Source: a virus
DNA: 29,150 bases
IMG/VR virus record: IMGVR_UViG_3300007346_000145
Location: 1 to 29,150 of that record
Reading direction: 5' to 3' (one strand)
In this document: positions 1 to 29,150 of the stretch, in pieces
How positions within the stretch are numbered: the stretch's first letter is position 1
Layout of the letters: each line of letters opens with the position of its first letter
The notes under the pieces: generated by a model
The model's input: only the letters and a program-made list of their open reading frames with translations
Databases searched by the model: none
What the model was told of the DNA's origin: nothing
Position numbers and translations under genes: made by a program

Positions 1-1649
1 ACAACCTGGTTCAACGTACGAAGCCCCTGCTGTTCTTTCGTAGCAGGGTTCAGCGCCTTCATCGAACCACCCTCAATGCTAATCAGGAACTCGCCGTACA
101 GGTCTTCTTTCGAAACCTCAGGCCACTGCGCCCCCTCGAACCCTGCCACTCGGATAGCCGTCGGCTCGTCCAGATACTCCTGGCAGAGAAGGAACATGAG
201 CGTTCCGATCTGCGCCGCAGCCTCTTCAACCGACTGGATCTTGTCCTGCGCACGCAACGTAGCGACACCCTCAACGACAGCAGCGGCCGTAGCGGACATA
301 CGGTCGGCGCCCATACCGCCGGACTGGAAGTCGTTGATACCAAGAACTTCTTGCATGTACGCCTGAATTTCGGCTTTAGCAGCATAAATGTCGTTTGCCA
401 AAGCGGCGCGGAACACAGGAACAATAATCTGGTCCAGCGGTTCACCGTTAGGAACTTCGACCTGCGCAACAACGTCCGACTCGGACGACTCCAGCGCGGC
501 GATCAACTCTTCGGTCACGGCGTCCTTGCGAACAAGATACTTCTGTCCGGCCCGGCGCGCGTTCTCGAACTGTTCGGTGATCAGTTCGTTCATCATCTCC
601 TGCAGCGAAGCAACATTGTCAATGTCGCCAAAACCCCAGAAGTCGTTCCCGCTCGAAGTGAAGTTACGGACGTGGACGAACGGCGGGTAGCGGTGCGACC
701 AAGGAAGGTCACCCTGCCACAGCGGGTCGGGGGACTCCAACTGGAACACGGACAACTGCCGGGTTCGCATGTCGTAGAACTCCCAGTAGGTAGCAGTGTC
801 AAGGGCCAAGTCGGAATAGTGGCTGCCCTGAACCTCTTCGACCTGACGTCGCCACTCGGCCTGATACTCATCGGCAGGGTTGACCGTCGCCCCGTCACGA
901 ACAACAGTGTCTTCATTGACGTCAAATTCCGGGTTGGCGAGAACTTCGTCGACATGCATTGTGATACGGTGAGCGACCCACTGCGCGTCTTCGATACGTC
1001 GGGCGTTGTTCGGGACAAAAATGTCGTACGGGGACACGTACTCTGCGAACGGCTCCGACCGGATGACGCGCATCATGCTGGATGGCACAGAACGTTCCAT
1101 GACTTCGATACGGCCGTCGAAATCGCGGTCTTCCAAAATGGCAGTAAGGCGTTCGTCGTTGTACTTGTCCAAAGCGATCTCACGGCGAGCCGAACCGTCA
1201 AGTTCGGCTTCTTCCTCGATGTGAGTCCAACCGACCTTGACAAACCCTGAGCCAAGGCGGACCGCGTCGGCGGTCGCATCACGCAGTTCGCGGGTGGTCC
1301 GGAGCCGCTTCCAGAAGTAGTTGATAACAGCGTCGGCAACTTCGGAGTTCAGTTCGGCTTCTTCCCCTCCGGCGTACGGCACTGCAACAAACTGCGGGTC
1401 TCGCGAAACGACAGACGCAAGAATGATGTTAATATGTGGCAGAATCATGTTGACAACATGCTCAGACAGGTGCGGGAAGAAGTCGGTCAGTTTCCCAGCC
1501 TGGACCTGCTCAGCCTGACGAAGCGACCCGGTTCGGTACAGGGCTTCGATAAGCCGCCAGCGGCGGTGGCGCTCGTCCATCGTCGCAACAGAGTGGCGGA
1601 CAAGGTCCTGCATCTGCGTCAACGAGTAAGGCTGAATCTTTACCGCCAT
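1..1649 (-). CDS. portal protein (partial, 3' end beyond window)
   Basis: The portal forms the dodecameric ring at the capsid vertex through which DNA is packaged and ejected. The frame is open from ATG at 1649 to the window edge, giving 549 codons without a stop. The protein starts MAVKIQPYSLTQMQ. It contains the mixed helical and acidic pattern of phage portals, including WEFYDMRTRQLSVF, then GFGDIDNVASLQEMMNELI and EQFENARRAGQKYLV, close to the P22/podovirus-type head-tail connector pattern. The ATG overlaps the end of the large terminase gene by 10 bases, and a GGAGAG sits about 9 bases upstream, so translation is probably coupled. The position directly after terminase is the classic packaging gene order. 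The family is recognised by pattern, not by search. Confidence 0.85.
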   Translation of the reverse strand, partial: MAVKIQPYSLTQMQDLVRHSVATMDERHRRWRLIEALYRTGSLRQAEQVQAGKLTDFFPHLSEHVVNMILPHINIILASVVSRDPQFVAVPYAGGEEAELNSEVADAVINYFWKRLRTTRELRDATADAVRLGSGFVKVGWTHIEEEAELDGSARREIALDKYNDERLTAILEDRDFDGRIEVMERSVPSSMMRVIRSEPFAEYVSPYDIFVPNNARRIEDAQWVAHRITMHVDEVLANPEFDVNEDTVVRDGATVNPADEYQAEWRRQVEEVQGSHYSDLALDTATYWEFYDMRTRQLSVFQLESPDPLWQGDLPWSHRYPPFVHVRNFTSSGNDFWGFGDIDNVASLQEMMNELITEQFENARRAGQKYLVRKDAVTEELIAALESSESDVVAQVEVPNGEPLDQIIVPVFRAALANDIYAAKAEIQAYMQEVLGINDFQSGGMGADRMSATAAAVVEGVATLRAQDKIQSVEEAAAQIGTLMFLLCQEYLDEPTAIRVAGFEGAQWPEVSKEDLYGEFLISIEGGSMKALNPATKEQQGLRTLNQV

Positions 1650-3361
1650 GAGCCGGCTCTCCGCATTCTCCTGGCATAACTTTGGTTGTCACGGTCCTGC
1701 TGCCGCCAGATCGCAGCCGCCTCATCGAAGATGTGGCCTACCGTGAACACCTGCATGTTGTCGACAAGTCCATCCATATGGCTGTTTGTGGCCTTCGGAG
1801 CGTTCTGCTCAGCCACATAAACCCAGATTGCGGTTGACATGACTAGGTCGTCGTTCATTCCAACGTCTGCCGCGACTTTCCCGTCAGGTTTGACAACGAA
1901 AGCGCCAAGTTCCCGGCGCAACATCGCATCAACGCCACCCATGACCGTCTCATTCTCAAAATCAAGCCATTTTGCTAGCGTGTCAACGACCAGCGGACGC
2001 CGCGTTGCGGTCATAGGGAACCCGTACATCTGTTCCTGCCGGTATTTACGGTGTCCTGTGTACCTGTGGACGTACAGGTTCGTGTAACCTTCGGATCTCA
2101 TAATATGAACGACAGTTTCGCCGTACCCGCCTTGCCGTTCGACGACCATCAGCGCGTCACGGCCGGCAGAATCGGCAAAGAAACGTCCGGTAAGCATCGC
2201 ATCAACCGTATATTCGGCCGGTTCGACCATGTTTGAGTGCCAGAACCCTACTCTTTGCGGCACACCATCCTGATCGACCCACCCTATACACATCGACGTG
2301 TAGTCGCCGCCCGTCCCAGACGCTGGGTCAAGGGAAATTACCGCCCTGCAACCGTCAGGCACCCCAATCAGGGCGTCTTCGCGGAACCTGAAGTTCCCTT
2401 CGCTATCAGGTTTGAACGTAACATTGCCATAATCGTCGTTTACAAGGTCGCCGCGAAGCGGAAAGTCCTCAAATTCTTCCACATCAGGCAGATCTACAAA
2501 CCTGGAACGGCCAGACTGTCTAAAAGCCTCCTCAGCGGACGACGGATACTCGGCAAAAAACAGCCAAGGTTCCGACGCCATCGCTTTTTTCTTCGCATCA
2601 TAGTGCGTGTAGTCGATTGTTTCACGTGAAACGGCCGGGTTCATAAACCTGGACACGTACCACGGGTGAAAAATCGGAACAAACTGGTTGTCTCCACGTT
2701 CTGCGTCACGGTAAAGACGCGCGAAAGAGTTGTGGCCGCCACGTGCCGTGCTGAAAACGATCATTGAACCGCCCGCGTCGGTCGTCGGAAGCAGCGTACG
2801 CAGCGCATCGTCCTGATATTCGGCCAGAGCAGCCTCGTCCCACAGCACCAGCGTCGCCGTCTGACCGGCTGCCACCGTCCTAGTAGCCGCGTACGACGTG
2901 ATGCGGGACACCATACCGTCAGAAAACTTGTACGAATGGTGTTTTGCCGCGTCGTTGTCCAGTTTCGGGCCGCGTTCCAACACCCATTTTGGCAGGAACG
3001 ACCACATGAAATCGATCATTTCCAACGCTTTATCGGCTGCAGTCTGACTACGAGACACCATTACGATGTTCGAACCGGGCCGGAACATCAGCATCCACAG
3101 CGCATACGCCATAGCAAGCGTCGTAAGTCCCAACTGGCGGGCCTTCAGAACAACCACATACCGTTCCGAACGGAAGATATCGAGCGTCTCACGCTGGTAG
3201 TCGAACAGTTCGAAGTTTGTACGGCCAGAAGTCCCACCCATAATCTCGCCGGCAGGGATCTGCAGGCACTCTTCGAAGAAAAGCGCCGGATCGTCCCGGT
3301 ATTGGCGCCACTTCAACTCGGCGTAAGCCTGCTCCAAGGCGGCACGGCGACGCTGGTTCAC
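1640..3361 (-). CDS. terL: terminase large subunit (packaging ATPase/nuclease)
   Basis: This is the motor that pumps DNA into the prohead and cuts the concatemer. In the 573-aa product the Walker A-like motif KARQLGLTT lies at about 73-81. Walker B LVLWDE with the catalytic Glu lies at about 171-176. An RNase H-like nuclease follows, with acidic residues in SLDPASG (D about 345), VVERQGG (E about 408) and GMNDD (D about 504/505). Both halves look intact. I chose the GTG at 3361 because it forms a GTGA overlap with the small terminase stop. The open frame runs 20 codons further upstream, but entirely inside the small terminase gene. The C-terminus overlaps the portal start. All expected catalytic residues are present. 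Confidence 0.95.
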   Translation of the reverse strand: MNQRRRAALEQAYAELKWRQYRDDPALFFEECLQIPAGEIMGGTSGRTNFELFDYQRETLDIFRSERYVVVLKARQLGLTTLAMAYALWMLMFRPGSNIVMVSRSQTAADKALEMIDFMWSFLPKWVLERGPKLDNDAAKHHSYKFSDGMVSRITSYAATRTVAAGQTATLVLWDEAALAEYQDDALRTLLPTTDAGGSMIVFSTARGGHNSFARLYRDAERGDNQFVPIFHPWYVSRFMNPAVSRETIDYTHYDAKKKAMASEPWLFFAEYPSSAEEAFRQSGRSRFVDLPDVEEFEDFPLRGDLVNDDYGNVTFKPDSEGNFRFREDALIGVPDGCRAVISLDPASGTGGDYTSMCIGWVDQDGVPQRVGFWHSNMVEPAEYTVDAMLTGRFFADSAGRDALMVVERQGGYGETVVHIMRSEGYTNLYVHRYTGHRKYRQEQMYGFPMTATRRPLVVDTLAKWLDFENETVMGGVDAMLRRELGAFVVKPDGKVAADVGMNDDLVMSTAIWVYVAEQNAPKATNSHMDGLVDNMQVFTVGHIFDEAAAIWRQQDRDNQSYARRMRRAGSWR

Positions 3362-3933
3362 GCCGGAGCAACCTGCAACGACATCCAGCCGGTCATCGCG
3401 TCCATCCCGATAAGCCGGCACACCTCCCCAACCAGGTCTTCATCAGATATATCGGGGAACATGTTGCCAGATTTCTGCTCAGCCTCAATAAAAGGCTTCC
3501 CGTAATGTTTCATGTACATGTCGATAGCGCCCTGGTTGCCATCCATCGCCATCCTGACCAGCGTGTCTTTCACCTGCTGGTACCGCTGCTCGTCCTCCGA
3601 CAGCGACTCGTCCCACACAGGATCGTCAGACACCGTCAAAGCGGGCGTCTCGAATTTTTTCAAAGCATTACCATGAGAAGCAGGTTTCGGACCGCCAATG
3701 GCCGACACAGTCGAATTCGGTGCGGAGTGAGACACCTCGATCCGACGCTGTCTCACTAACTCCTGAAACGGCTCCTGAGCCTCCCAACGGGACAACGTAC
3801 GAGGATTCACACCCTTAAGATGTGCGAAATCCCGTTTCGTAGTAGGAAGACCAAAAGAAGTCTTTAAACGGGACGGCGTAGCCAGCCAAGTAGCATACTC
3901 ATACTTGACCGACGTTTTAGGAATATTCGCCAT
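3358..3933 (-). CDS. terS: terminase small subunit (DNA recognition)
   Basis: A 191-aa protein lying directly upstream of the large terminase and overlapping it by four bases. Residues about 25-52 read as a helix-turn-helix: a TKRDFAHLKGV helix, a turn, then NPRTLSRWEAQ as the recognition helix. This is typical of small terminases that bind the packaging initiation site. A hydrophilic linker follows, then a helical stretch (DEQRYQQVKDTLVRMAMDG, AIDMYMKHYGKP) that could be the oligomerisation part. The call rests on the helix-turn-helix, the size and the gene order. Its ATG overlaps the stop of the Lys-rich gene before it. Confidence 0.8.
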   Translation of the reverse strand: MANIPKTSVKYEYATWLATPSRLKTSFGLPTTKRDFAHLKGVNPRTLSRWEAQEPFQELVRQRRIEVSHSAPNSTVSAIGGPKPASHGNALKKFETPALTVSDDPVWDESLSEDEQRYQQVKDTLVRMAMDGNQGAIDMYMKHYGKPFIEAEQKSGNMFPDISDEDLVGEVCRLIGMDAMTGWMSLQVAPA

Positions 3934-10438: not shown

Positions 10439-10695
10439 AGAAGTATCAGCGTATCTTTATCACCAGCATTTCCTTCACTACAGAAGACGGTATGAATATT
10501 ACTGTCGTGCCAGAGATGGCGCTCTGTAATGTGATGGAAGAGGAGGAGTATGTGGAGATGCAGATCCCGGTCATTACCGGAGATTTGACTACGCATATCG
10601 TTCTGACAGACCAGGAGATGCGGGCTGTTCAGAGAACTGCACTTATCCGTGAGTCTCTGCGTGCTGTGACACGGGCTATGCGTGGTGCACGATGA
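10435..10695 (+). CDS. hypothetical protein (86 aa)
   Basis: GTG at 10435 overlaps the previous stop, with GAGGAG about nine bases upstream. The product starts with beta strands (KKYQRIFITSISFTTEDGMN) and ends in a basic helix (REMRAVQ-like, IRESLRAVTRAMRGAR). Not recognised. The ATGA overlap with the WhiB gene suggests the two are produced together. Confidence 0.6.
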   Translation: MKKYQRIFITSISFTTEDGMNITVVPEMALCNVMEEEEYVEMQIPVITGDLTTHIVLTDQEMRAVQRTALIRESLRAVTRAMRGAR

Positions 10696-10958
10696 GGGAT
10701 TGGATAGATGATGCGAACTGTCGTGGGATGGATACAAGCATATTCTTCCCTGAGAATGGGATGCAGTATGACCCGTTCGTAAGGGAGGTGTGTTATTCCT
10801 GCGACGTTCAGGAACAGTGCCTGTTGTACGCAGTCAGTCATTCGATTGACTACGGAATGTACGGAGGGATGTCTCCAAGAGAGAGGGACGCATGGAGGAG
10901 CAAGAACAGGACTATCACGTCATCGTTGTGGAACGGGCAACTGGCGAGCCTTTCCTGA
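10692..10958 (+). CDS. whiB-like: WhiB-like iron-sulfur transcriptional regulator (88 aa)
   Basis: WhiB-family proteins bind a 4Fe-4S cluster and regulate transcription through the principal sigma factor. They are essentially restricted to actinobacteria and their phages. The four cysteines C10, C34, C37 and C43 give the canonical C...C-x2-C-x5-C spacing. GMYGGMSPRER at about 55-65 matches the G(V/I)(W/Y)GG turn followed by the basic segment. ATG at 10692 overlaps the preceding stop. The last part overlaps the next gene by 67 bases in another frame. This gene is the best clue to the host. Confidence 0.92.
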   Translation: MRDWIDDANCRGMDTSIFFPENGMQYDPFVREVCYSCDVQEQCLLYAVSHSIDYGMYGGMSPRERDAWRSKNRTITSSLWNGQLASLS

Positions 10959-12756: not shown

Positions 12757-12829
12757 GGGCCGGTAACTCAATAGGCAGAGTAGCGGACTTTTAATCCGAC
12801 AGTTGGGGGTTCGATTCCCTCCCGGCCCA
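12757..12829 (+). tRNA. tRNA-Lys (anticodon TTT)
   Basis: Acceptor GGGCCGG (12757-12763) pairs with CCGGCCC (12822-12828); discriminator A. The anticodon loop is CTTTTAA, so the anticodon is TTT. The T arm is GGGGGTTCGATTCCCTC-like. The 3' CCA is not encoded. It sits 7 bases after a stop codon. Confidence 0.93.
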
Positions 12830-12850
12830 CTCGCGATAGAAGGGAGCAAG

Positions 12851-17562: not shown

Positions 17563-17643
17563 GCCACCGTGGCGGAATGGCAGACGCGCCCGACTCAAAA
17601 TCGGGTCCCGAAAGGGGTGCAGGTTCAAGTCCTGCCGGTGGTA
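17563..17643 (+). tRNA. tRNA-Leu (anticodon CAA)
   Basis: Acceptor GCCACCG (17563-17569) pairs with CGGTGGT (17636-17642), with one G-T pair; discriminator A. The anticodon loop CTCAAAA gives anticodon CAA, reading TTG. The variable arm is long, as expected for tRNA-Leu. No encoded CCA. It abuts the HNH stop. Confidence 0.92.
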
Positions 17644-17644
17644 C

Positions 17645-17717
17645 GCCCCCATCGTCTAGCGGCCTAGGACACTGGCCTTTCAAGCCGGCAGCACGGGTTC
17701 GAATCCCGTTGGGGGTA
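17645..17717 (+). tRNA. tRNA-Glu (anticodon TTC)
   Basis: Acceptor GCCCCCA (17645-17651) pairs with TGGGGGT (17710-17716), with one G-T pair; discriminator A. The anticodon arm CTGGC-CTTTCAA-GCCGG gives TTC. The T arm is ACGGG-TTCGAAT-CCCGT. It lies one base after tRNA-Leu, so the two are likely co-processed. Confidence 0.93.
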
Positions 17718-17748
17718 CGCATATTCATCAGCCAGTGGAGATACTTGC

Positions 17749-17957: not shown

Positions 17958-18194
17958 ATGGAAGAAAACCTAGGGGAATGGGACATCAGAACTGCGACCA
18001 TCAAATACGACAGTGCGGCAGCAGTGCAGGTTCAGAAGGAGACTGTCCTTCACGAAATGATGCACGCCATCCTGGAACACACAGCAGTGGACGCGGAGAT
18101 GCACGAAGATATTATTCGTGCCATCTCACCGCTGCTGCTTCACATGCTGACCATGAATCCTAAGATGGTCGGCTGGCTTACATCATCCGCCTGA
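17958..18194 (+). CDS. HExxH zinc metallopeptidase-like protein (78 aa from this start)
   Basis: The motif VLHEMMHAILEH gives the zinc-binding HExxH (about 32-36), followed by AEMHEDIIRAI, where a third ligand is expected. Short phage metallopeptidase-like proteins of the IrrE/ImmA type look like this. The start is uncertain. ATG at 17958 has no close Shine-Dalgarno. The frame is open back to 17775, and the stretch before the ATG (HADIKVVGCAM) fits the first strand of the family, so the real start may be ATG at 17790 or 17829, inside the preceding gene. The end overlaps the leftward 725-aa gene tail to tail by 17 bases. Confidence 0.75.
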   Translation: MEENLGEWDIRTATIKYDSAAAVQVQKETVLHEMMHAILEHTAVDAEMHEDIIRAISPLLLHMLTMNPKMVGWLTSSA

Positions 18195-20355
18195 GGGCCT
18201 CGCGCCATTCCATAGCAAGACGGCGGTACAGCCACGGTTCGATCTGCGACTTCTGCGAAAGCATCTGCGCATAAACTTCGTCGGCTTCTGCTTTGGTAGT
18301 AATACTGCGCACAGTTTCCAAAGCCTGCGCACCGTAACGCTGCGTCCAACGAAGTTGCGCAGGTGTGCTGGCACGATTGAACCTTGCCTGGCCTCCAGAG
18401 ACGACAGGAACATCGGTCTGCATAGCGATTGCTTCAGCGCGGCTAAGGCCAGGGACTTTCGGAGTCGTTAGAGATTCGTAACGGTCGAAGCCAGCCGCAC
18501 CTTCCGAAAGAATCTGGTCAATCGGCTTTGCAAGTTCTGCACGACGAGCCTCTTCCAGCCGAGAAGACATTGCCGACTTCTGACGCTGCTTGCTGCTCTG
18601 CTTACGAGGACGACGCTTACGACCCGTGTCCATAGGAATGCCACCCATGAAGTCGGGAGACTCACGCTCAAACTCTCCACCACGGTCCGTGACACGCCGC
18701 ATGCTCGTCGGGTCTTCCGAAACGCTACGGTAATCAGCGGTCTCAGTCAGCACACGGTTCTGCCGCTCAACCTCGGTCGGACCAAAGTCTTCCCCAAGCA
18801 CACGACTAGGCGGCTCAATCGAATCGACACCCTGCAACTCGTCCATCTTGGCAAGCGCAGCGTCGTTCAACTCCAAACGGAACCGTGCAGCATCAGCCTC
18901 CGACAAACCCTTGGTATTTGTTAGCGCCTCCTGGGCTGCAGCCGACACACTGTAAAGATCAGACCTTGTCTGAGCCTTAGCAATAGAATCTTTCGCATAC
19001 GCATGCTTACCAGCCGTGTAATCGCCAGAACGGATAGCGGCGACAGCAGCCTGCGAAGAAGCCGAAGGCTTCACCTGACCCATCTTCTCACGGGCTTTGC
19101 GGACTTTACCAAGGAGGAGGTCATACTGGTTGGCGTTCAGACCACCAGCAGTAGCGGCGTTGTAACGGCGCACACCACGTTCGCCAGCCTCGCCAAGCAA
19201 CTCTGCAGACTCGCGGGTAAGTTTGTTGATCGTCTCTTCAATCAGCGCTTCTTCACGACCACGGACAAGATAGTCTTCGACTTCGTCCAAGCCGGCCGCA
19301 TCCATCTTCTTTTCAAGGACTTTGATCCTGTCGTTCAAACCACGGAACACCGTAAGTTTGTTCGACGAAACTTCCAAAGCAATGCCAGTGACAGGACGCG
19401 AACCCTGCTTACGAGTGACCTTCTTAACGCCAGTGTCAACAATGTCACGAGGAACATCGAACCCCATGTCCTCAACCTGCTGAACAGTCAGACCAAGTCC
19501 GCCGTCCTTGACCGGCGTAAGCATCATCTCAGGAGTAATACCCTTAACCCCGGCCATCTTAAGACGCTTCGCAGTTTCAAGCGCAGCCTCATTGATAGCA
19601 GCAAGTTCACCAGAGTCAAAGTTAGAACCGACCTGAACCCCGCCACGGCCAGAATAACCTGAGACGCTACCGACCCCGACCTTGCGGCCCTGAGTGGCAG
19701 CACGCTGGGTGACCCGCCACATCATCTCAAACTGCTCGGGAGTTTCGGCCTGGGAAAGGAACGCCGCGTAAACGTAGCCCTCCTGCCCCTCAACACGCCG
19801 CTCAAACTCGCGGGCGTTATTAATGATGCGCTTTCTCTCCTTCGGATCCATGTCGACAAGAGTCGCAGCAATATCCTTCCACCGTCGGCGCAACTGCGGA
19901 CGGCCAGGAACCGGCTCCCGGAACGGCGTCAGCCGTCTGACAGGCGTACTGTCCGGAGGAACCCTGCTACCAGGAGCGACAAACCCAATGTCCTGAGGAT
20001 CTCTTAAAGTACGAGGGCGACGGATCGGGAACAGACCTTCGCCCTGAGGAACTCTCGGGCCAGCAAACCCGATCTGCTCAGGGGTCCGAGGAGCAGGCGG
20101 AGGGCCAGGGCGAAGATCAGGTCGAAGGGTAGGACGGCGGGAAAAAGGAACTTCCGCACCGCGAGACTCTTCAGGGATACCACGGCTGCGTCGAATTGCG
20201 GCCAGTTCATCGGAATTAAGAACGGCGCCGGGCCTAGAAATCAACTCGCCAGTGCCAACATCTTCAAAAAGATTGTCAGAGAATCGCCGAAGAGCGCCAG
20301 AACTAAGCCCATCGGCAATCCGCTGAGCCACCGAAACCCACGGTTTAACAGCCAT
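18178..20355 (-). CDS. large virion-associated protein (725 aa)
   Basis: Unrecognised by motif. ATG at 20355 follows GGAG five bases upstream; it overlaps the stop of the 58-aa gene. The N-terminus MAVKPWVSVAQRIADGLSSG is followed by Pro/Arg-rich low complexity (RPDLRPGPPPAPRTPEQIGF). The rest is long charged helices (RIKVLEKKMDAAGLDEVEDY, EEALIEETINKLTRESAELL). It is the last gene of the leftward cluster that includes the 1649-aa protein. Size and composition resemble inner virion or ejection proteins. Assignment by context only. Confidence 0.7.
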   Translation of the reverse strand: MAVKPWVSVAQRIADGLSSGALRRFSDNLFEDVGTGELISRPGAVLNSDELAAIRRSRGIPEESRGAEVPFSRRPTLRPDLRPGPPPAPRTPEQIGFAGPRVPQGEGLFPIRRPRTLRDPQDIGFVAPGSRVPPDSTPVRRLTPFREPVPGRPQLRRRWKDIAATLVDMDPKERKRIINNAREFERRVEGQEGYVYAAFLSQAETPEQFEMMWRVTQRAATQGRKVGVGSVSGYSGRGGVQVGSNFDSGELAAINEAALETAKRLKMAGVKGITPEMMLTPVKDGGLGLTVQQVEDMGFDVPRDIVDTGVKKVTRKQGSRPVTGIALEVSSNKLTVFRGLNDRIKVLEKKMDAAGLDEVEDYLVRGREEALIEETINKLTRESAELLGEAGERGVRRYNAATAGGLNANQYDLLLGKVRKAREKMGQVKPSASSQAAVAAIRSGDYTAGKHAYAKDSIAKAQTRSDLYSVSAAAQEALTNTKGLSEADAARFRLELNDAALAKMDELQGVDSIEPPSRVLGEDFGPTEVERQNRVLTETADYRSVSEDPTSMRRVTDRGGEFERESPDFMGGIPMDTGRKRRPRKQSSKQRQKSAMSSRLEEARRAELAKPIDQILSEGAAGFDRYESLTTPKVPGLSRAEAIAMQTDVPVVSGGQARFNRASTPAQLRWTQRYGAQALETVRSITTKAEADEVYAQMLSQKSQIEPWLYRRLAMEWREALRRMM

Positions 20356-20531
20356 CAGAACTCCAGTTCTTCCCACTCTTCCACAGTTTGTGGCCTATGC
20401 TTCAAAGAACGTTTGTATTCTGCGCCAGAAGGAATAGTCCTATCGCCCCAAGAAAGCCCGTCTTTAAGGTCCTGAAGTTTCCGTTGCCGCCGCAGCCTCG
20501 CATGAACCTTACGGTCGTACTCAGCGTCCAC
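20355..20531 (-). CDS. small basic protein (58 aa)
   Basis: GTG at 20531 follows GGGAG eight bases upstream and overlaps the end of the 1649-aa gene by 11 bases. The product begins VDAEYDRKVHARLRRQRKLQ and ends HRPQTVEEWEELEF: a basic head and an acidic tail. The longer frame upstream is a shadow of the giant gene. Function unknown; probably a virion accessory given its position. Confidence 0.6.
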   Translation of the reverse strand: MDAEYDRKVHARLRRQRKLQDLKDGLSWGDRTIPSGAEYKRSLKHRPQTVEEWEELEF

Positions 20532-23500
20532 GCTGCGAATACTCCCACAGAATCCTGGCCCGCTCATCAGCGTCCATACGACGGACATCCTCAGGCAAGA
20601 ACCCGAGGCTCTGAAGTTCGTCCTCCTCCAACGTCTGAACCCCGAACTGTCGGATTCCACGCTCTGCGTCAGAGTCGGCAGGCGGGACATACCGCCAGAT
20701 CGTCTGGATCAGGTCCAACTGCGGAGACCCTTCAGGCGCGTAGGCAGACAGAGCAGCGACAATCTCTTCTTCTGCCGTGCCAGAGGCAATTAGCGTTTCA
20801 ATACGGCGGAACATACGCCAGGCAGACACCGCTTTCCGAACGTCAACCTCTTCGGAGCCCATACCGACAATGTCAAGGTTGGCAATGAACTCTGGGGTAG
20901 CACCATCCTTGACCAAAGCACGAATCATTTCCATCTTGTATTCGTAATCTTCGCCGAACTTAGATTCCAACTGGCGCTTCACAAACTCGGTACGACGGTT
21001 CATCTCACCAGCAGTCTTCCAGTCGTCCAACGTAGACACAGGCAGGCCAAGCACACCAGACACGATGGCAGTAAGCCATCGGCCAGGGTCACGTTCGCCA
21101 CCAGCAACAGGCGCCGCATACCGTTCGATCATTCCCACCTGAGGCAAAGCGCTACGCAGCGCGATCATTGCACTACGGTTGACCACCCGTTCACCAGTCG
21201 AAGGGTCGATGCGGCTAAGAACCTGCTTGAACCCTGGCAACTGCGTCCAACCAGGGGCAGGTTCGGTAGGCATCTCAGAGATGGCAGGTTCGCCTTCCAT
21301 CCCTTTCATAATTTCGGCGCCCATCTTTGCGATAGGGTTCAGGTTCTGCCCAAACTCGCGGATGTTCAGATAGTTCAGCGGGTTAAACTTCGACACACCT
21401 TCGCCAGGGATACGAAGCCAAGTGTTCAAGTCGGTCAGCGGTTCCGCAAGGAACATGCCCATCGCCACGTCACCCTGAGGGCGCATCCATTCTGGCAGCA
21501 TCTCGAAGATTGCAGAGTTCTCGTCGATCTGGAACCCGAACCTGTCGGCAACATACGACGGGACCGGATTCTCGTCATCGTCCTGGAACATGTCGCCCAA
21601 AGATTCGTGGATACGAAGAGCCTGCTGGATAAGGCCGGGCTGGTGGATGGCGGCACGAACCTGCAGCGGGACGTTGTAACGGGTCCACGTGTAGAACGGC
21701 AGCAGCAGTTTCAGACCGTTCCGTTCAAAATCAGACAGGTCGGAGTAATCGAACTGGCTGGCTTTAACCCACTGCGAGGCACCATACCCACGGATGCCAG
21801 ACGCAGCATCTTCCAACCCCATTTCCTGCGCGCCCTTAAGGAACGCAGCCATACGCAGATACTCTTCAGAGGATTCGGCCATAGGAGCCATGACGTTACG
21901 GATCCACGGGTTATCGAACGCCGCTTTGTTCATCCACTTTTCGTACAACCCGATGTCGCCAGAAGCGACGACGGTCGTCGGCGCACCAGTCGAACCCATG
22001 TTCGGCTCAAAGTATTCGGTGATGACTTTGCCAGTGTTGGGGTCAAGCCGTTCGTTCTTCAAAGTTCCGGCTCGGCCGGTCTGGCTGCTGAACCCAAGGA
22101 TTTCTCCCACGAAACGTGAGGTGTTGCGGTTACCGCCAAGCCCGTTCTTGTGGAACAGTTCCCACAGTTCGATCAGAGCATCCCCGTCTTCAACGCCTTT
22201 GATGAAGTTGCCGGTTTTGCCAGCATACTGACCGCGAATAATCTTCGACACTTCGTCGCGCATCATGTTGCCGACAGTCAAAGGCTCGCGTTCAAAGATC
22301 GTGTCGCCCAACTTTTCTTTAACAATCCTGCGAGCCTTTACCTGCGCGGTAAGAAGTGCGGCAGAAGCGGACGTGTGGACACGCCCCACCCCGGTGATGT
22401 GCAGGTTCCACGAACCACCGAGGATGTTACGGGCCACGAATCCAGGGCCACGGCCCAGCGTCATCCAAGCCTTCTGCATTGCGTAAAACGGCATGTAAAG
22501 GTTCTTGATCATGCGTGCGACTTCAGACTTGGGTTCCTGGTAGACGGAAAACATCCGCTGCAAAGACTCCATCAACTTCTCAGACCCGTACATCTGCTGC
22601 ATCTGCAGCGACACACGGTCCTTGACCCGTTCGACAGAATCTTTAGCAATAGTCCCATCAGGGTTAAACGACATTCCTTCGATGTTCATGTAGTTCTGTG
22701 CAGTCAGCCAGTCACGAAACCCTTTTGCAAGGTCTTTGTCGGTAACCGCAGCAACCTTGTCACCTTTGCGAATGTACGGACGGCCGCTAGCAGAAACATC
22801 TGCGCCGGGCTTAAGCCGTCCAAACTTCTGCATCTGACGAAGACCAATTTCCACAAGGGCCTGGATCGTGGCGGGCTGATCCTGAGGAGGAACATTGTCA
22901 ACCATTCTCAGCCAACCCTGATAAACCGACCCGAACGTACGCTCGGTCCCAGCAATCTCCTCCAGAATCTTTTCACGTTCGTCAGCAATCGCCGTCTTAT
23001 AAGCAGCCGTACGCTTCGAACGGAAGATAGTTGCAGCAGAAACTTTCGCGTCCTGATAAGAGCCGAACACGACAGGGCTGCCGTCCTTGTTCAAAACAGG
23101 GTTGCCTTTAGCGTCCAGCAACTCCCATTCGGATGTGCCTTTCTTGTTGCGGATCGTAGTGCCATCCCACTTGTTAACAAACGAACCGCCTTTGCCCTGC
23201 GTGTATTCGTCAAGGTCAACACGCCGGGTGACTTCGATGCCGGCGGCAGCGATCCTGTCGGCAATAGCCTCTGCTTCGCGAAGAGTCTGACGAGACGCTG
23301 CCGCCCGCGGGACAAACTTTGTCTTCAACTCTTCTTCAAGGATCTTCAGCCAACCAGGCTGGTCAATGCCTAGCGCCTCAACGATCTCTTCGCCGACAAT
23401 GCTTTCGTTCACACGCCGAAGGCTTGCAATGTCCTTAGCACGAGGGCGCGCAATAACTCCAGAATCAACAAACAGGTTGATGAGACGCTGCTCGTTCAGC

Positions 23501-25470
23501 GCCATCTTTGTATCGATAAGATAGTCGGCCATAAACTGGGTTGGGTCTGCCTTGAAGACTTCGTCCCAGCCTTCGTCGCCCATCGTCAGAATGTTTTCCG
23601 GCGGCTCCCAGCCAACACGAACAATGTCACCGTTCTTTTTCTGCGCCCATCCGGAAGCAAACCGTGAACGGGTTTTAGAAAAGTCCGAAGTAGTACCCGT
23701 TGTGACAAACATCCGGCCCTTGCGAGCCCGCCGTGCCGCCTCACGACCAGTTGTAATACGCGGCGCATAGTCCTGAAGGAAATTGAAAGCACTGGTGTAG
23801 TCGCGGTTGTAGACGCTGACCGCTTCATTACCGATCTCATCCAACATATCCCGCCAGATTGCAGCAGAGTCCAAAGCGCGCTGCTGCATCTCCGTCAAAG
23901 AGTCACGCTGCTCCAACGCCTCCTTCAACTTTTGAGTGCTGTAAAAGTAGTTCTTCCACTGTTCATGGAACTGGTCGCCATACTCTTGACGGCCAGAAAT
24001 GTAAAGGTTGTTCGCTGTCGTATGCCGCTCATAAATCTTACGTTCAAACAGCGCGTCAGCCTGGCGGGCTTGGAACTGTGCAGCCTCAGCGACAGAATAG
24101 TCAAGGTAACTTGCCGCAGAACGGCCGGCACCATAAGGAATAGTCCGACCCGTCGCAGCAACAATCGCATCATAATAGATGTCAGCGTTCTTACCTGTGA
24201 TCTTCCCAAGAACCGGAGCAAGCCCAGCGCGAAGATAATCCCGGCCCCGTTCCGTCAGTTCCGTAGCCTTCCGAATAGCCTTGTACTTTTCACCAAGACG
24301 GCCAGCGCCAACACCCTGAACGCCCCAAGCCTTTGCCGTACCGTCTGCGTTTCGAACAAACGGCGCACGGATACGAAGACCACCCTGAATGTCCTTTGGA
24401 AGCGATGCAACATATGCTTCGCCGAAATCGTCACCGAAAGACTTACGCGCCCAGGCTCGCAAACCTGCAGCCGAACGGCGCGCATAGTTCAAAGCCGCAG
24501 CCTCAGGAGCCAACTGCAAGGCAACGTCGCGGCTGATGTCAAACCCGACATACTGGCGCAGCATGTCAGCATCCTGGAGCACACTACCAAGTTCGTCGGT
24601 CTGATCAAACGCCTGCTTGCGCCACTTGTTAAAGTTGCGAATCCAGTCCTTGTCCTTACCGTCAATGACCCTGTTCAAAAACTCTTTGTTTGAGAACAAT
24701 TCGTCCATGTCCCGGCGCATAATACGTGCCACAGCATCAGACTTGACAACATTGTCTTGAACCATCTCAGAAATAAACCGTCGCGCATCAAAAGTCGGGC
24801 GGCCAAGCGCACCCTTAAGAACGCTCCGAGTAGCCGACGCAACCTTACGCGACGCACCAAGACGGCCAAGAATAGACCCGCCGAAAGAAATGTAAGTCAG
24901 CGGGTCAACAGCCGTATCGATGACAAAACCAAGGGCGCTGTTAAACCCGCGTTCGATCAGCCCGACTTCTTCCCCGCGAGCCTTCTTATTCGCAACAGAA
25001 GTAAACTCTGCGAAACGGAACTGGTCCTCGCCGCTGATGCCTTCCATAGCGCGACGAATAGCAGTGTTGATGTTGTTTCGGTTTGCCGCATCAGCCTCGC
25101 GCTCCCCCGTTTCGGGCCGCGACATACCAAGAAGACCAGTAACAGCACCGACACCGGCAGACGAACCGCGCCCAAGGAAATCAAACAGCGAAGCAACGAC
25201 GCCCTTGTTCGGCTCTGTCCCAACTCCAGGGATCGCCTGCTCTGCAGCCTGGGCAACGTCGTATTCCGGCTGCGCCTGAATTTTTCTGACAGTGCCACCG
25301 GGGGCGCCAAGTGCTTCTGCGATAGAACCTTCGGTCATACCGAGTAGGCTTGCATAGGTTTGACGTTCTGGTGCGCCAAGACTTCCTGTGCCTCTACGGC
25401 GCTGGAAGAACGAACCGAAAGTCGGACTTCCCGAACGGGAACCTTCGGTAGGAAGAAAACCCTGTGACAT
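20521..25470 (-). CDS. giant virion protein, probable internal/ejection protein (1649 aa)
   Basis: This is the largest gene in the window. ATG at 25470 overlaps the previous stop (TAATG); no strong Shine-Dalgarno is seen, so coupling is likely. The N-terminus MSQGFLPTEGSRSGSPTFGS is low-complexity. Gly/Ala-rich hydrophobic segments follow (about 90-120, GVVASLFDFLGRGSSAGVGA; and around 190, FVIDTAVDPLTYISFGGSIL). Long helical regions fill the middle, and the C-terminus is acidic. Podophages encode similarly large inner-core proteins that are ejected to form a DNA channel. I see no lysozyme or transglycosylase signature with confidence, so the function is inferred from size, order and composition. 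Confidence 0.75.
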   Translation of the reverse strand: MSQGFLPTEGSRSGSPTFGSFFQRRRGTGSLGAPERQTYASLLGMTEGSIAEALGAPGGTVRKIQAQPEYDVAQAAEQAIPGVGTEPNKGVVASLFDFLGRGSSAGVGAVTGLLGMSRPETGEREADAANRNNINTAIRRAMEGISGEDQFRFAEFTSVANKKARGEEVGLIERGFNSALGFVIDTAVDPLTYISFGGSILGRLGASRKVASATRSVLKGALGRPTFDARRFISEMVQDNVVKSDAVARIMRRDMDELFSNKEFLNRVIDGKDKDWIRNFNKWRKQAFDQTDELGSVLQDADMLRQYVGFDISRDVALQLAPEAAALNYARRSAAGLRAWARKSFGDDFGEAYVASLPKDIQGGLRIRAPFVRNADGTAKAWGVQGVGAGRLGEKYKAIRKATELTERGRDYLRAGLAPVLGKITGKNADIYYDAIVAATGRTIPYGAGRSAASYLDYSVAEAAQFQARQADALFERKIYERHTTANNLYISGRQEYGDQFHEQWKNYFYSTQKLKEALEQRDSLTEMQQRALDSAAIWRDMLDEIGNEAVSVYNRDYTSAFNFLQDYAPRITTGREAARRARKGRMFVTTGTTSDFSKTRSRFASGWAQKKNGDIVRVGWEPPENILTMGDEGWDEVFKADPTQFMADYLIDTKMALNEQRLINLFVDSGVIARPRAKDIASLRRVNESIVGEEIVEALGIDQPGWLKILEEELKTKFVPRAAASRQTLREAEAIADRIAAAGIEVTRRVDLDEYTQGKGGSFVNKWDGTTIRNKKGTSEWELLDAKGNPVLNKDGSPVVFGSYQDAKVSAATIFRSKRTAAYKTAIADEREKILEEIAGTERTFGSVYQGWLRMVDNVPPQDQPATIQALVEIGLRQMQKFGRLKPGADVSASGRPYIRKGDKVAAVTDKDLAKGFRDWLTAQNYMNIEGMSFNPDGTIAKDSVERVKDRVSLQMQQMYGSEKLMESLQRMFSVYQEPKSEVARMIKNLYMPFYAMQKAWMTLGRGPGFVARNILGGSWNLHITGVGRVHTSASAALLTAQVKARRIVKEKLGDTIFEREPLTVGNMMRDEVSKIIRGQYAGKTGNFIKGVEDGDALIELWELFHKNGLGGNRNTSRFVGEILGFSSQTGRAGTLKNERLDPNTGKVITEYFEPNMGSTGAPTTVVASGDIGLYEKWMNKAAFDNPWIRNVMAPMAESSEEYLRMAAFLKGAQEMGLEDAASGIRGYGASQWVKASQFDYSDLSDFERNGLKLLLPFYTWTRYNVPLQVRAAIHQPGLIQQALRIHESLGDMFQDDDENPVPSYVADRFGFQIDENSAIFEMLPEWMRPQGDVAMGMFLAEPLTDLNTWLRIPGEGVSKFNPLNYLNIREFGQNLNPIAKMGAEIMKGMEGEPAISEMPTEPAPGWTQLPGFKQVLSRIDPSTGERVVNRSAMIALRSALPQVGMIERYAAPVAGGERDPGRWLTAIVSGVLGLPVSTLDDWKTAGEMNRRTEFVKRQLESKFGEDYEYKMEMIRALVKDGATPEFIANLDIVGMGSEEVDVRKAVSAWRMFRRIETLIASGTAEEEIVAALSAYAPEGSPQLDLIQTIWRYVPPADSDAERGIRQFGVQTLEEDELQSLGFLPEDVRRMDADERARILWEYSQRGR

Positions 25471-27194
25471 TATTCGACCGTATTCGCCGCAGCCGGGAGA
25501 GGAACGCTTTCAGCAGCAAGAGCATCAGCCTGCATCTGATCAACACGGCGCTGCAAAGCAAGGTCACTTGCCGCAGGGCCGTAAACATTCGAGTAAACCG
25601 ACTCTTCTTCAGGAGTCGGAAGCCGCCCAAACTGCTGAGCAAACAGGTAGACAAAGTCATCAAGACCCAACGTGCCGCTGCCAGCAACATCAGAAATAAA
25701 CTGCTGGGTAGCGGCCGGCCCAAACTGGTCGGCACGCTCAGCAGCCAGACGGGCGTTCAACTCCGAAGCAGACTGCGAAGCAGACAACTGCTGCATAAGC
25801 AGGTTCAACTCCGCATTCCGCATTTCAGAACGTTCCTGGTTGATACGGTTCGCAACATCCCGCTGATAGTTAGCAATACCACCAGAACGGGCAAACGCCG
25901 CAGCACGCTGCAGATCGCCCTGCTGGGCGGCACCCTGAGCGGACGTAACGTCGCCAAGCCAGTCCACGCCCTCTGCGCCGATGTCGCCTATACGCTGCGT
26001 GTACTGCTGCTCAACAGGAATCATAGCCTGAGCAAAGTTAAGCCATTCGTTCCCGGAAGGAGTTGCCGCAGCGCCCAATCCAAGGCCGCGCATATCCTGC
26101 GCCATGCCAGTCTGCTGCTCAGCAAGCCGGGTTTTAAGATCCGAAGCAACACCGCCAAGAGACTCGCCAAGACGGTCAACTTCCGCAGCAGTCCCCTCGC
26201 GGGACATCCGAGCACGGTCACGAATCTTAGATTCTTTCTCCGCATAAATCGAAGAGATCGCCTCAACACCAGCAGCACGCTGCGCCTCAATGTCTTCCAA
26301 CATAAACTTCAAACGGGCACGTTCTTCGTCAGTCTCAGCCAACTGGTACTGGCTTCGCAGATTTGCCAAAGCCTTGTTGTACTGAGCGTTCAAAGCGCCC
26401 ATGCTCGCACCGGCCTGGGCCGAAGGCTGATTGCCGCCACCGCTGGCAACAAGCGCCTCAGCAGCAGCGCGAGCATTAGGATTCTTACGCCCACCTTCAC
26501 CGGCCTGCATTTCAGCAAGACTCCGATACGACTTACCTGCGGGAGAAGCGCCCTGTTCTTTAATCCGGTCAGCCATCCCAGCATAACGTGCAGCGGCAGC
26601 ATTGGTCGGCGCAGTAGCGCCGCCAGTAAGAAGAGCGCTCGGCTGACCGGAACTTGCAGGAGCCGGATCATTGCCAGCAACATTAGCATAAATACCCGCA
26701 GCAAGAGCGGCAGGAATAGCAAGACGAGGATTACGACGAGCAACACGAAGCGCAGGCTTAACAACACCACCGATGCCTGCCCGTGCGGCCCTGAAGGGAT
26801 GACGCAAACCCGCCGCACGAGTTGCTGTTCCAGCAGCACGAAGAGCGCGACCAGAACGGCCAAGTGCACTAAGCGCACGGCCGCCTTTCAACGCCCCCGT
26901 GACAGCCCCGCCACCGTAAATCCAGGAAAGGGGACTTGCAATAGCAAACGCGCCTTCCTTCAGCGCCTCTCCCCAATCACCACGCTGCCCAGCATTCCAC
27001 GCACGACGCGCATTATCCAAACCAAGTTCGTTTGCAGCCAGCGTCATAAGAAGTTCGGCAGTATTAGGATCTTCGCCGCCAAAACGGTAAAACCCCGTGC
27101 CGTAATCATACCCGTTGCTAACACGCTGAGGCTGATACTGGACGCCCCCTGCTTCGGAGTACATCCCAGAAACTACATCTTCAAGAAAACCCAT
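25470..27194 (-). CDS. virion protein with hydrophobic segment and coiled coil (574 aa)
   Basis: ATG at 27194 has GGGAGG five bases upstream. The N-terminus begins MGFLEDVVSGMYSEAGGVQY. An Ala/Gly/Arg-rich stretch (about 95-160) leads to a hydrophobic segment PRLAIPAALAAGIYANVAG, a possible membrane-active region. A long helical, Gln/Glu/Ala-rich region (about 250-450) is predicted coiled coil. This resembles internal core proteins of podoviruses. Its complementary strand is also open over nearly the whole length, which I regard as a codon-bias shadow. Confidence 0.7.
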   Translation of the reverse strand: MGFLEDVVSGMYSEAGGVQYQPQRVSNGYDYGTGFYRFGGEDPNTAELLMTLAANELGLDNARRAWNAGQRGDWGEALKEGAFAIASPLSWIYGGGAVTGALKGGRALSALGRSGRALRAAGTATRAAGLRHPFRAARAGIGGVVKPALRVARRNPRLAIPAALAAGIYANVAGNDPAPASSGQPSALLTGGATAPTNAAAARYAGMADRIKEQGASPAGKSYRSLAEMQAGEGGRKNPNARAAAEALVASGGGNQPSAQAGASMGALNAQYNKALANLRSQYQLAETDEERARLKFMLEDIEAQRAAGVEAISSIYAEKESKIRDRARMSREGTAAEVDRLGESLGGVASDLKTRLAEQQTGMAQDMRGLGLGAAATPSGNEWLNFAQAMIPVEQQYTQRIGDIGAEGVDWLGDVTSAQGAAQQGDLQRAAAFARSGGIANYQRDVANRINQERSEMRNAELNLLMQQLSASQSASELNARLAAERADQFGPAATQQFISDVAGSGTLGLDDFVYLFAQQFGRLPTPEEESVYSNVYGPAASDLALQRRVDQMQADALAAESVPLPAAANTVE

Positions 27195-27195
27195 A

Positions 27196-27801
27196 TCAGC
27201 CTCCCAGATACTGCGAAACGTTCAAAAGATTCTCGATAGCAGAACGCATAGACGCCTCGTCCTGATCAACCCGAGCAATCTCCTGATCCCGGTCCAGACG
27301 CAATTCCTCAACCATCTGGGAAAGCGCAGAAAGATTCGTCGAAAGTTCCGAGTCAATCTCCCCATACTTCAAACGCAGATCCTCGCCAGCCCTACGCGCA
27401 TAACGGCCCGCAACCATAGGAGCCCGAGCCGTACCTTCTCCGCCAAACTCTCGCATCTGGTCTTCAAGATTCCGCTTAAACTTGCGGTCCTCAGCCTGCC
27501 GCTTCCGAATAGCAGAAAGTCGCGACAGCGACTCAGACCTGGCAGCCCCAGCCAAAGCCTCCTGGTACGCCTCATCAGCAACACGGCGGCGGTCAGCCAA
27601 CGCACCCAACTGCGCAGAAGTCAACGACGGAGCAATCTTAGGATACGTAGGGACCTCGGGGACTTTCAAATCCGTACGAGTGTTATCAGGCGTAGGGTCT
27701 GGGTCCGGGTCCGGGTCAGGCTTAGGAATAACAGGTTTTGCCGAAGGACGGTAGCCTCCGGCGGTTCTTCCAAGATCAATGTCCCAAGGTTTTACAGCCA
27801 A
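27196..27801 (-). CDS. virion-associated protein with PD repeats (201 aa)
   Basis: The start is TTG at 27801, since AGGAG lies about eight bases upstream and no ATG or GTG fits. The N-terminus MAVKPWDIDLGRTAGGYRPS shares its first six residues with the 725-aa protein. A repeat PKPDPDPDPDPTPD (about 26-40) forms an extended acidic-proline linker. The C-terminal two thirds are charged helices (RRRVADEAYQEALAGAARSE, EELRLDRDQEIARVDQDEAS), likely coiled coil. Function unknown; late operon. Confidence 0.65.
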   Translation of the reverse strand: MAVKPWDIDLGRTAGGYRPSAKPVIPKPDPDPDPDPTPDNTRTDLKVPEVPTYPKIAPSLTSAQLGALADRRRVADEAYQEALAGAARSESLSRLSAIRKRQAEDRKFKRNLEDQMREFGGEGTARAPMVAGRYARRAGEDLRLKYGEIDSELSTNLSALSQMVEELRLDRDQEIARVDQDEASMRSAIENLLNVSQYLGG

Positions 27802-27841: not shown

Positions 27842-28657
27842 CTAAAGGCCAAGCAGAAACTTCCACAAACGCGGGTTAGCCACCCCAGACATAGGAAGAT
27901 TGGCCTTCTGCTGCGCACGCTTCACAGCCCCCTCCACAGATGGCCCGAACGCACCATCCAACCAGCCGTCCTTGTTCAGATTTCCTTCCAAAGTCATAAA
28001 CCCGCCAGAAAACAGCAGACCCTGAAGACGCCGAACCCACGAGCCACGTTTACCACGACCCAAACTGTTAGGAAAACTCATCTTCTTGTCCTTCCCTATG
28101 GGCCTGACAATCTCCCCACCTTCGACTTTAGTACCCATAAGATTTGTCACATAACGGCGGAACATGTCCATATCGACGCCGCGAGGATCTACCTTACGTT
28201 TAGGAGCCCACTCCTTATGGCCGACAACCATGCTTGGAGTAGCCTGCATGACTCGCAGCAGGGCGGCAGTTCCGACCCCAAGCGCTTCAATCTGCTTCTG
28301 AGGCCAAGGTTCCCCCACTCCGTCGTTAGCACATTCAATGCCAATAAAGTTTGTGTTCCCAGCCGTAATATTCCCCCACTTACCAGCCCCCGCATGGTTC
28401 GCTTTCCCCGCAGCAATCACCACAAAAGTGCCGTCACGCTCCAACTGAAGATGGCAGAGCGGCCCCTTCAGGTCCGGCCGTCCCTGCACCAGAAGCCGTG
28501 TAAGGCGTTCTTTGGACCAGTTCGGGCCGGTGGCCGTATGGTGGACCATAACGCCCTTAGGCGTGAACGTGGAGCCTCCACGAACCGTCCAGCGGGGCGC
28601 CTCCTCAACGGTAAGGCCGGCGCCCCGCAGGGTGTTGGCAAGCCAGGTGGCGGTCAC
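27842..28657 (-). CDS. endolysin: N-acetylmuramoyl-L-alanine amidase with peptidoglycan-binding domain (271 aa)
   Basis: Cleaves the bond between muramic acid and the stem peptide, releasing progeny phage. The amidase_2/PGRP-like domain spans about 1-160. Zinc ligand candidates are H39/H40 in VMVHHTATG, H147 in VVGHKEWAP, and D157 in KVDPRG. A substrate-pocket segment NTNFIGIECAND lies between. The C-terminal PG_binding_1-like domain (about 205-271) has WVRRLQGLLFSGG, DGAFGPSVEGAVKRAQQKA and the end segment RLWKFLLGL. GTG at 28657 overlaps the previous stop. The two membrane-protein genes before it fit a holin-lysin cassette. Confidence 0.92.
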   Translation of the reverse strand: MTATWLANTLRGAGLTVEEAPRWTVRGGSTFTPKGVMVHHTATGPNWSKERLTRLLVQGRPDLKGPLCHLQLERDGTFVVIAAGKANHAGAGKWGNITAGNTNFIGIECANDGVGEPWPQKQIEALGVGTAALLRVMQATPSMVVGHKEWAPKRKVDPRGVDMDMFRRYVTNLMGTKVEGGEIVRPIGKDKKMSFPNSLGRGKRGSWVRRLQGLLFSGGFMTLEGNLNKDGWLDGAFGPSVEGAVKRAQQKANLPMSGVANPRLWKFLLGL

Positions 28658-28983
28658 GGCAGATCCGTGTCCTCAATGTCAGGATAGTCGTACATCTCCT
28701 GCAGGTGCTTCAGAAAATCCTCAAAGGCCTTTCGCTCAGCCTCTGGATTTTCATATCGCGGAACAGCACGACCTCCCAGCAGCAGCCCAGCAGCAGGCAC
28801 TCGCAGTTCCAGGAAGCGCAGCGCAGAATAATATACGGTCGCCAGAAGCACCGTCGTCCACTCGGCGACCAGGTCAGCCGGAAGCCACGGGCCAAGCGCA
28901 GAGGCAGCAACAGCACCGACCGCAAGCGGAACCACCGTTCGGCGGAGTGACAGGAACAGGTCATACTTATCAAACCTCATCAT
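28654..28983 (-). CDS. small membrane protein, possible holin (109 aa)
   Basis: Two adjacent ATG codons (28983, 28980) follow GGACTG, a weak ribosome binding site; the frame open to 29022 is less likely. MMRFDKYDLFLSLRRTVVPL is followed by two hydrophobic stretches (LAVGAVAASALGPWL and TVLLATVYYSALRFLEL), then a soluble acidic tail (EAERKAFEDFLKHLQEMYDY). Two membrane segments and a charged tail directly before a lysin gene fit a holin. The stop overlaps the lysin start. The assignment depends on position. Confidence 0.65.
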   Translation of the reverse strand: MMRFDKYDLFLSLRRTVVPLAVGAVAASALGPWLPADLVAEWTTVLLATVYYSALRFLELRVPAAGLLLGGRAVPRYENPEAERKAFEDFLKHLQEMYDYPDIEDTDLP

Positions 28984-29150
28984 CAGTCCAGTCTGTAGGA
29001 TTGTAATGCCATTTGTCGTCAAACGTAGCGAACGCCGTGTACGCCGTCAGAATGATACTAATCAGACTGACACCACCGACAGCCATTTGCAAGGCAACCG
29101 ATGTATCCGTCCGGTAAGCGGCCATTGCAAACACAATCATCGCCACGCCC
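28970..29150 (-). CDS. membrane protein, partial (5' end beyond window), possible holin
   Basis: Reads into the window from the right edge and ends at the TGA at 28970. The visible 59 residues begin GVAMIVFAMAAYRTDTSVAL and continue QMAVGGVSLISIILTAYTAF, with two hydrophobic stretches and a hydrophilic tail ending in DWTDDEV. It overlaps the next gene start by 14 bases. With that gene it may form a two-component holin system. The missing N-terminus limits the assignment. Confidence 0.55.
   Translation of the reverse strand, partial: GVAMIVFAMAAYRTDTSVALQMAVGGVSLISIILTAYTAFATFDDKWHYNPTDWTDDEV

Follow-up and report, generated by a model that had tools for sequence, protein, structure and literature searches.

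What does a virus do with a protein of 1649 amino acids (aa) that resembles no familiar enzyme? This question is raised by a DNA stretch of 29,150 nucleotides (nt), the whole of IMG/VR virus record IMGVR_UViG_3300007346_000145 (positions 1 to 29,150), which we refer to as the window. The open reading frame (ORF) of this giant protein is real and lies on the minus strand, where it occupies 4950 of the 29,150 bases (17%), in agreement with a preliminary description of the window. Stop codons are present on the plus strand in the same frame. The ATG of the giant overlaps the stop codon of a 574-aa gene by 1 base (TAATG), and this overlap, together with relatives that carry two colinear conserved cores, places the ORF beyond chance. 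Scanned alone, the giant gave no match in Pfam (E ≤ 1), PHROG (E ≤ 0.1) or, as a single sequence, PDB (E ≤ 10), so that the earlier statement that it has no recognisable enzymatic domain stands. With a probability of roughly 80%, we consider it to be a gp16-like DNA-ejection protein without a lytic domain, encoded by a short-tailed phage that infects an actinobacterium.

A family of giants with two conserved cores

A tblastn search of 50,697 phage records with the giant gave one match, to phage DS1 (residues 1235–1309, E = 6e-5), and a single-sequence search of viral contigs returned the overlapping contig L002 alone. The search started from DS1 led to Arthrobacter phage Jasmine, Adat and relatives, Microbacterium phage Shocker, and the metagenomic Podoviridae genome ctEqG8; a second genome of this kind, ct52p938, entered as best terminase match. 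In pairwise comparisons the giant shares an N-terminal region (GFxxDxxxDPxTY) and a C-terminal region (PGFxxRN, PFYTWTR) with DS1 and ctEqG8. For Shocker the C region was found at 2.5e-4 and the N motif weakly, for ct52p938 the C region only (7.7e-4), and for Jasmine both regions weakly (0.012 and 0.037). Core hidden Markov models (HMMs) built without DS1, Shocker and Jasmine detected both cores in all three. The giant is not an orphan but a member of a two-core family that includes the giants of the actinobacterial podoviruses DS1, Jasmine and Shocker. Searches of openly licensed papers returned no description of this family. Within the N motif, residues G181, F182, D185, D189 and P190 are invariant across 30 sequences.

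When IMG/VR was searched with the N motif as a DNA pattern, at least 120 stretches were obtained. The set used here comprises 119 N-motif loci (L numbers) and excludes the window's copy. A complete motif ORF of more than 600 aa is present in 43 of the 119 (823–3048 aa, median 1450). Left out of the counts were seven complete but short motif ORFs, of at most 430 aa (L039, L040, L043, L068, L091, L111, L118), ORFs cut by the locus end, and copies of the window (L001, L002, L074). Since the loci had been picked by the N motif, matches to the C core provide an independent test. A C-core HMM built from the window giant and five reference giants only matched 42 of the 43 complete giant ORFs; among all six-frame ORFs of the loci it matched 57 of 2778, compared with 0 of 2778 reversed ORFs. 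For a larger count, N-core and C-core HMMs were used that include 27 loci proteins. They detected the N core in at least 118 ORFs (113 in IMG/VR loci, 5 in reference phages), 66 of which also have the C core, and many of the N-core ORFs without a C core are cut by the locus end. In 47 complete members, the 43 loci giants and those of DS1, Jasmine, Shocker and ctEqG8, the region that separates the two cores measures 219 to 2426 aa, and its length tracks total length (r = 0.99).

Scans of members against PHROG gave phrog_36598, a family of unknown function, in 4 of 30 and 7 of 19, and phrog_19395 in 4 of 30; the remaining matches were confined to single members. No lytic transglycosylase was matched by Pfam in the giant or in 49 members, and an SLT domain found in 2 of 44 family records lies outside the giants. 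The known domains that the preliminary description had named as contrary evidence, a lytic transglycosylase or a tape-measure domain, were not found in the giant.

Relation to the cyanophage A4 pre-ejectosome

A profile of 30 family members (A6) was compared with 177,635 distinct PDB sequences and gave one significant match, 9k3a_A (E = 7.6e-6; next 0.065). With a C-core profile of 49 members (A9), 9k3a_A again came first (E = 0.0068). The entry 9k3a is titled 'Cyanophage A4 pre-ejectosome', and its chain A is identical to ORF26 of Anabaena phage A-4L (1114 aa). When the C-core HMM was run with default filters on P22, T7 and A-4L proteins, A-4L ORF26 alone was matched; with filters off, on 7 proteins, P22 gp16 reached 4.3 bits (E 0.0092). 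Comparison with the P22 and T7 ejection proteins by hhalign gave probabilities of 0–2.9%.

Structure prediction followed by structural search, as proposed in the preliminary description, was carried out on residues 881–1649. The predicted model is mostly helical, with a mean predicted local distance difference test (pLDDT) value of 67.7 and many core blocks at about 80–94, which supports the long helices noted earlier. The Gly/Ala hydrophobic segments mentioned in the same place fared less well: A+G makes up 19.8% of the whole protein, 40-residue segments taken at steps of 10 residues all have fewer than 15 A+G, and only one 19-residue stretch (residues 1463–1481, 1.21) has a mean Kyte-Doolittle value above 1.2. 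In a structural second look with 846 chains aligned, 9k3a_A ranked first (149 residues, 4.7 Å), with a weak score of Z 5.5; a T7 core-protein chain was also present (Z 3.3). Residues of about 1006–1268 of the giant were aligned on residues 509–749 of 9k3a_A, a region that falls inside the profile-aligned stretch 462–810. What lends this structural match weight is its agreement with the sequence profile; the Z value by itself would not persuade. Foldseek against predicted viral proteins (BFVD) also returned the A-4L protein (E = 5.5e-5), together with Shocker and GurgleFerb. Judged from the sequence profiles, the C core is shared between the giant family and A4 ORF26.

Gene order, hosts and proposed role

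According to passages of a 2022 review (PMC8954989), a small-medium-large operon is typical for ejection proteins, gp15-like proteins were matched mostly by size and synteny, and the gp16-like proteins of P22 and Epsilon15 show little sequence similarity to T7 gp16 although the synteny matches. The window contains a small-medium-large run of 201, 574 and 1649 aa, in which the giant is the third and largest, as in P22 and T7. Of 42 loci, 41 have a co-directional gene directly before the giant, at a spacing of −31 to +37 nt; L123, a locus without an upstream gene, was left out of this count. In L122 and L079 a homologue of P22 gp7 (phrog_598, which matches P22 gene 7 at 4.2e-98) is found two genes upstream of the giant. 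The order gp7-like gene, middle gene, giant is the same as in P22, which puts the giant of both loci at the place of P22 gp16. Altogether phrog_598 matches 3 of 142 neighbour proteins, and 2 of the records were located; a short protein of L079 scored 8.4 bits against P22 gp7 with filters off. In Jasmine, the giant (1803 aa) is the product of gene 29, and the tail measures 10.3 nm, as stated in part of PMC5513430.

An ejection role of the giant is well supported by the homology of its C core to the A4 protein, by gene order and by the short tail of a relative. The preliminary description had suggested a new class of ejection protein. Ejection agrees with these findings, whereas 'new class' is overstated, as a distant relative has already been solved in an ejectosome. 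What is new compared to known ejection proteins is the N module, the expandable middle and the actinobacterial hosts.

The window encodes a WhiB-family regulator (Table 1), and among 14 control genomes WhiB was present only in that of Corynebacterium, which points to an actinobacterial host of the window phage. In genome assemblies, 52 stretches match the N motif and 15 of them have the C core. Eight of these 15 are labelled Patescibacteria (L141, L142, L146, L147, L162, L175, L176, L179), five of them on contigs of 61–120 kb that are possible proviruses; the other seven are labelled Pacearchaeota, Ignavibacteriae, Phycisphaerae, Cloacimonadota, UBP3 and two unnamed bacteria. Host claims from these assemblies are weak, since most are metagenome bins that may hold stray viral contigs. 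Alphaproteobacterial assemblies, several of them Parvibaculum, contain N-motif frames of 227–315 aa with a weak N core (3e-6 to 5e-4) and no C core (L132, L133, L135, L137, L143, L151, L154, L155, L159, L160, L171, L177). These may represent a separate small protein family or chance matches.

For the location of the giant in the virion, its ejection, its multimer state, its part in a conduit and its host, we infer the following course. Inside the head, the giant would form a multimer close to the portal; from there it would leave ahead of the DNA through the channel of portal, adaptor and nozzle, accompanied by the 574-aa protein and possibly by that of 201 aa. Together these proteins may build a conduit that spans cell wall and membrane, for which the C core (residues about 940–1400) would be the conserved assembly part, shared with the A4 pre-ejectosome protein. 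Opening of the wall would be the task of another protein, since the giant has no recognisable peptidoglycan hydrolase; candidates of this kind in relatives are the peptidase of DS1, the endolysin of Jasmine and the SLT domain of two family records.

Several observations weigh against an ejection protein of this kind. Sequence comparison of the giant family with gp16 of T7 and P22 gave nothing significant, and the 201-, 574- and 732-aa proteins of the window had no match among 14 proteins of P22, T7 and A-4L (best E 0.071). The P22 gp7 homologue could be placed in no more than 2 of 44 records, and the giant does not close the run, as it is followed by the co-directional 732-aa gene. With regard to the A4 protein, the N module was undetected in it, PDB profiles from six members only found neither 9k3a nor any other relative, and Foldseek against PDB gave no match at E ≤ 0.001. 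A Z value of 5.5 falls in the range in which the tool itself advises caution for helical models, and 9k3a was missing from the structural matches listed for a second, poor model, made from the whole L057 protein (847 aa, mean pLDDT 59.8). As a clue to the host, WhiB is present in only 6 of 45 family records, the window's included, and no proteomics was found for the window giant or any family member.

A probable function can now be offered for large 'hypothetical proteins' of actinobacterial podoviruses and for at least 118 N-core frames, and the family is tied to one solved ejectosome. A bolder idea, which we regard as tentative and rather doubtful, is that a giant ejection system is common to the short-tailed phages that infect single-membrane bacteria (Actinobacteria, perhaps also Patescibacteria). 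In its largest subunit both ends would be kept constant and the middle would be expandable, from about 200 to 2400 residues; this middle would act as a spacer adapted to the wall of the particular host, or as cargo that accompanies the DNA. According to passages of the 2022 review (PMC8954989), ejection proteins are widespread among podoviruses that infect Gram-negative bacteria and are lacking in phi29-like phages; if the idea is true, ejection proteins would concern thick-walled hosts as much as the Gram-negative ones from which they are mostly known. Crossing of a thick wall is directly testable, since Jasmine, Shocker and DS1 are recorded with bacterial hosts.

Alternative readings, neighbouring genes and known systems

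The giant could also be a polyvalent protein, a packaged multidomain effector that acts mainly inside the host, in anti-defence or takeover, and is no part of a conduit. Polyvalent proteins have been proposed to be injected (in part of PMC5512222), and among the predicted viral proteins matched by Foldseek the name 'Large polyvalent protein associated domain-containing protein' is frequent. The middle of the family varies, as described above; in a 1450-aa member (L082:532-4881, (+)) a ParB-like domain lies within it, and a DNA methyltransferase PHROG was matched in 1 of 30 members. However, such enzyme-type PHROG matches (ParB-like families and the one methyltransferase) are each limited to single members, a Pfam scan that included the LPD families matched 0 of 49 members at E ≤ 0.001, and several enzymatic domains in one chain were not recognised in the window giant. 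A search for LPD38 in 18 records gave no match, but the control gave no match either. As the C core matches an ejectosome protein, we consider an effector acting mainly in the host unlikely, and the two readings are not mutually exclusive.

A very long helical protein in a late operon would also fit the tape-measure protein of a long-tailed phage, and phrog_10030, which bears that name, is matched in 4 of 44 family records. These matches sit in separate frames of 243–443 aa outside the giants, though, and cover 92–181 aa at profile positions 1706–2006 of 2105, near the C-terminal end of the profile. No tail tube, sheath or tape measure was recognised among five scanned proteins of L002, the named relatives with examined morphology are podoviruses, and the short tail of the relative Jasmine speaks against this reading, which we regard as very improbable. 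Hardly more credible is a tail fibre or host-specificity protein. This name ('tail fiber protein; host specificity') comes from phrog_19395. In 17 of 30 records the PFYTW region is matched by this PHROG, among them L002 with the window's gene (whole-record search, E = 2.5e-4), with no match when the giant was scanned alone at E ≤ 0.1. It is also the GenBank name of A-4L ORF26 (L182:16766-20110, (-)), but the name is probably mistaken, as that protein is identical to chain A of 9k3a. The title of entry 9k3a argues for a location inside the head in the A4 relative, and L002 has a separate fibre-like gene upstream. An ejection protein remains our preferred reading of the giant.

The features of the window are listed in Table 1.

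Table 1. Features of the giant protein and of other genes in the window
Feature	Positions	Strand	Basis
Giant protein P0001, 1649 aa, ATG start	20521..25470	(-)	ORF, family and homology to 9k3a_A
N-terminal core, residues 60-260	24691..25293	(-)	HMM from A6 columns
N motif GFVIDTAVDPLTY, residues 181-193	24892..24930	(-)	Pattern conserved among relatives
Variable middle, residues 261-939	22654..24690	(-)	Length follows total length, 47 members
C-terminal helical core, residues 940-1400	21271..22653	(-)	HMM, predicted model, PDB profile match
Anchor VARNILGG, residues 1012-1019	22414..22437	(-)	Conserved among relatives
Anchor PFYTWTR, residues 1258-1264	21679..21699	(-)	Conserved among relatives
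574-aa gene, candidate partner	25470..27194	(-)	Adjoins giant upstream
201-aa gene, before 574-aa gene, size of P22 gp7/T7 gp14	27196..27801	(-)	Position and size only
732-aa gene, co-directional, 144 nt downstream of giant	18178..20376	(-)	ORF
Endolysin, Amidase_2 and PG_binding_1	27842..28657	(-)	Pfam and PHROG scans
122-aa hydrophobic protein before endolysin, possible holin	28654..29022	(-)	Inference
Terminase large subunit	1640..3421	(-)	PHROG scan and terminase matches
Probable portal protein, runs off left end of window	3..1649	(-)	Position and sequence reading
WhiB-family regulator	10692..10958	(+)	PF02467, E = 1.4e-18

The preliminary description had regarded both large neighbours as partners of the giant. 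For the 574-aa protein the position agrees with this view; for the other, nothing in its favour was found. The latter, noted there with 725 aa, has 732 aa from a GTG and 725 aa from an internal ATG (codon 8). Single-sequence searches of phage records with the 574- and 732-aa proteins gave no match. The IMG/VR contig L002 contains the giant gene at 100% identity and continues past the right end of the window, where it encodes a 224-aa protein that weakly matches PHROGs of phage heads and tails, and also holds the fibre-like gene and a collagen-like frame. A glucosyltransferase-like protein (L002:51-992, (+); phrog_854, E = 6.7e-30) is encoded directly upstream of the tail genes. Elsewhere in the window, a 275-aa protein (9453-10280, (+)) shows weak matches to class-II glutamine amidotransferases, under the curated cut-off. 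Three tRNA genes (Lys, Leu, Glu) are located at 12757-12830 and 17563-17718 (+); Leu and Glu tRNA genes stand side by side also in phage DS1.

Among other giants, a 13,470-bp gene of unknown function is reported from EK-cluster Microbacterium podoviruses in part of PMC11883469. Its product in RicoCaldo is gp31 (L183:13700-27169), a giant from a podovirus of Actinobacteria like those of the family, but it has 4489 aa and is encoded directly before the portal gene; as a candidate relative it was rejected, as 0 of 6 family HMMs matched at E ≤ 0.1. LPD polyvalent proteins resemble the giant family in size, in their variable middle and in the name given to several structural neighbours, and differ in that the 49 members have no LPD or other Pfam match.

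Closer to the giant are Jasmine gp29, Shocker gp37 and DS1 QSJ04773 (1743–1803 aa), which have both cores by HMM and a gene of 417–441 aa directly upstream. A peptidase or endolysin gene comes next in these phages (right after the giant, a peptidase in DS1 and an endolysin in Jasmine), whereas in the window the 732-aa gene is next and the amidase lies upstream. A-4L ORF26 shares with the giant the C-terminal helical core, the podovirus context and its place as a large gene directly after another large virion gene. It differs in its length of 1114 aa, in its cyanobacterial host, in the DPxTY N module, which was not detected, and in its neighbours, a 1717-aa protein (chain B) and a peptidase instead of the 574- and 201-aa proteins. 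The gp16 homologues, with 609–1337 aa according to passages of PMC8954989, are shorter than the giant. T7 gp16 has an N-terminal transglycosylase, to which the giant has no match, while P22 gp16, in the same source, is likewise without a hydrolase domain, and both gp16 proteins hold the rank in the gene run that the giant holds in the window.

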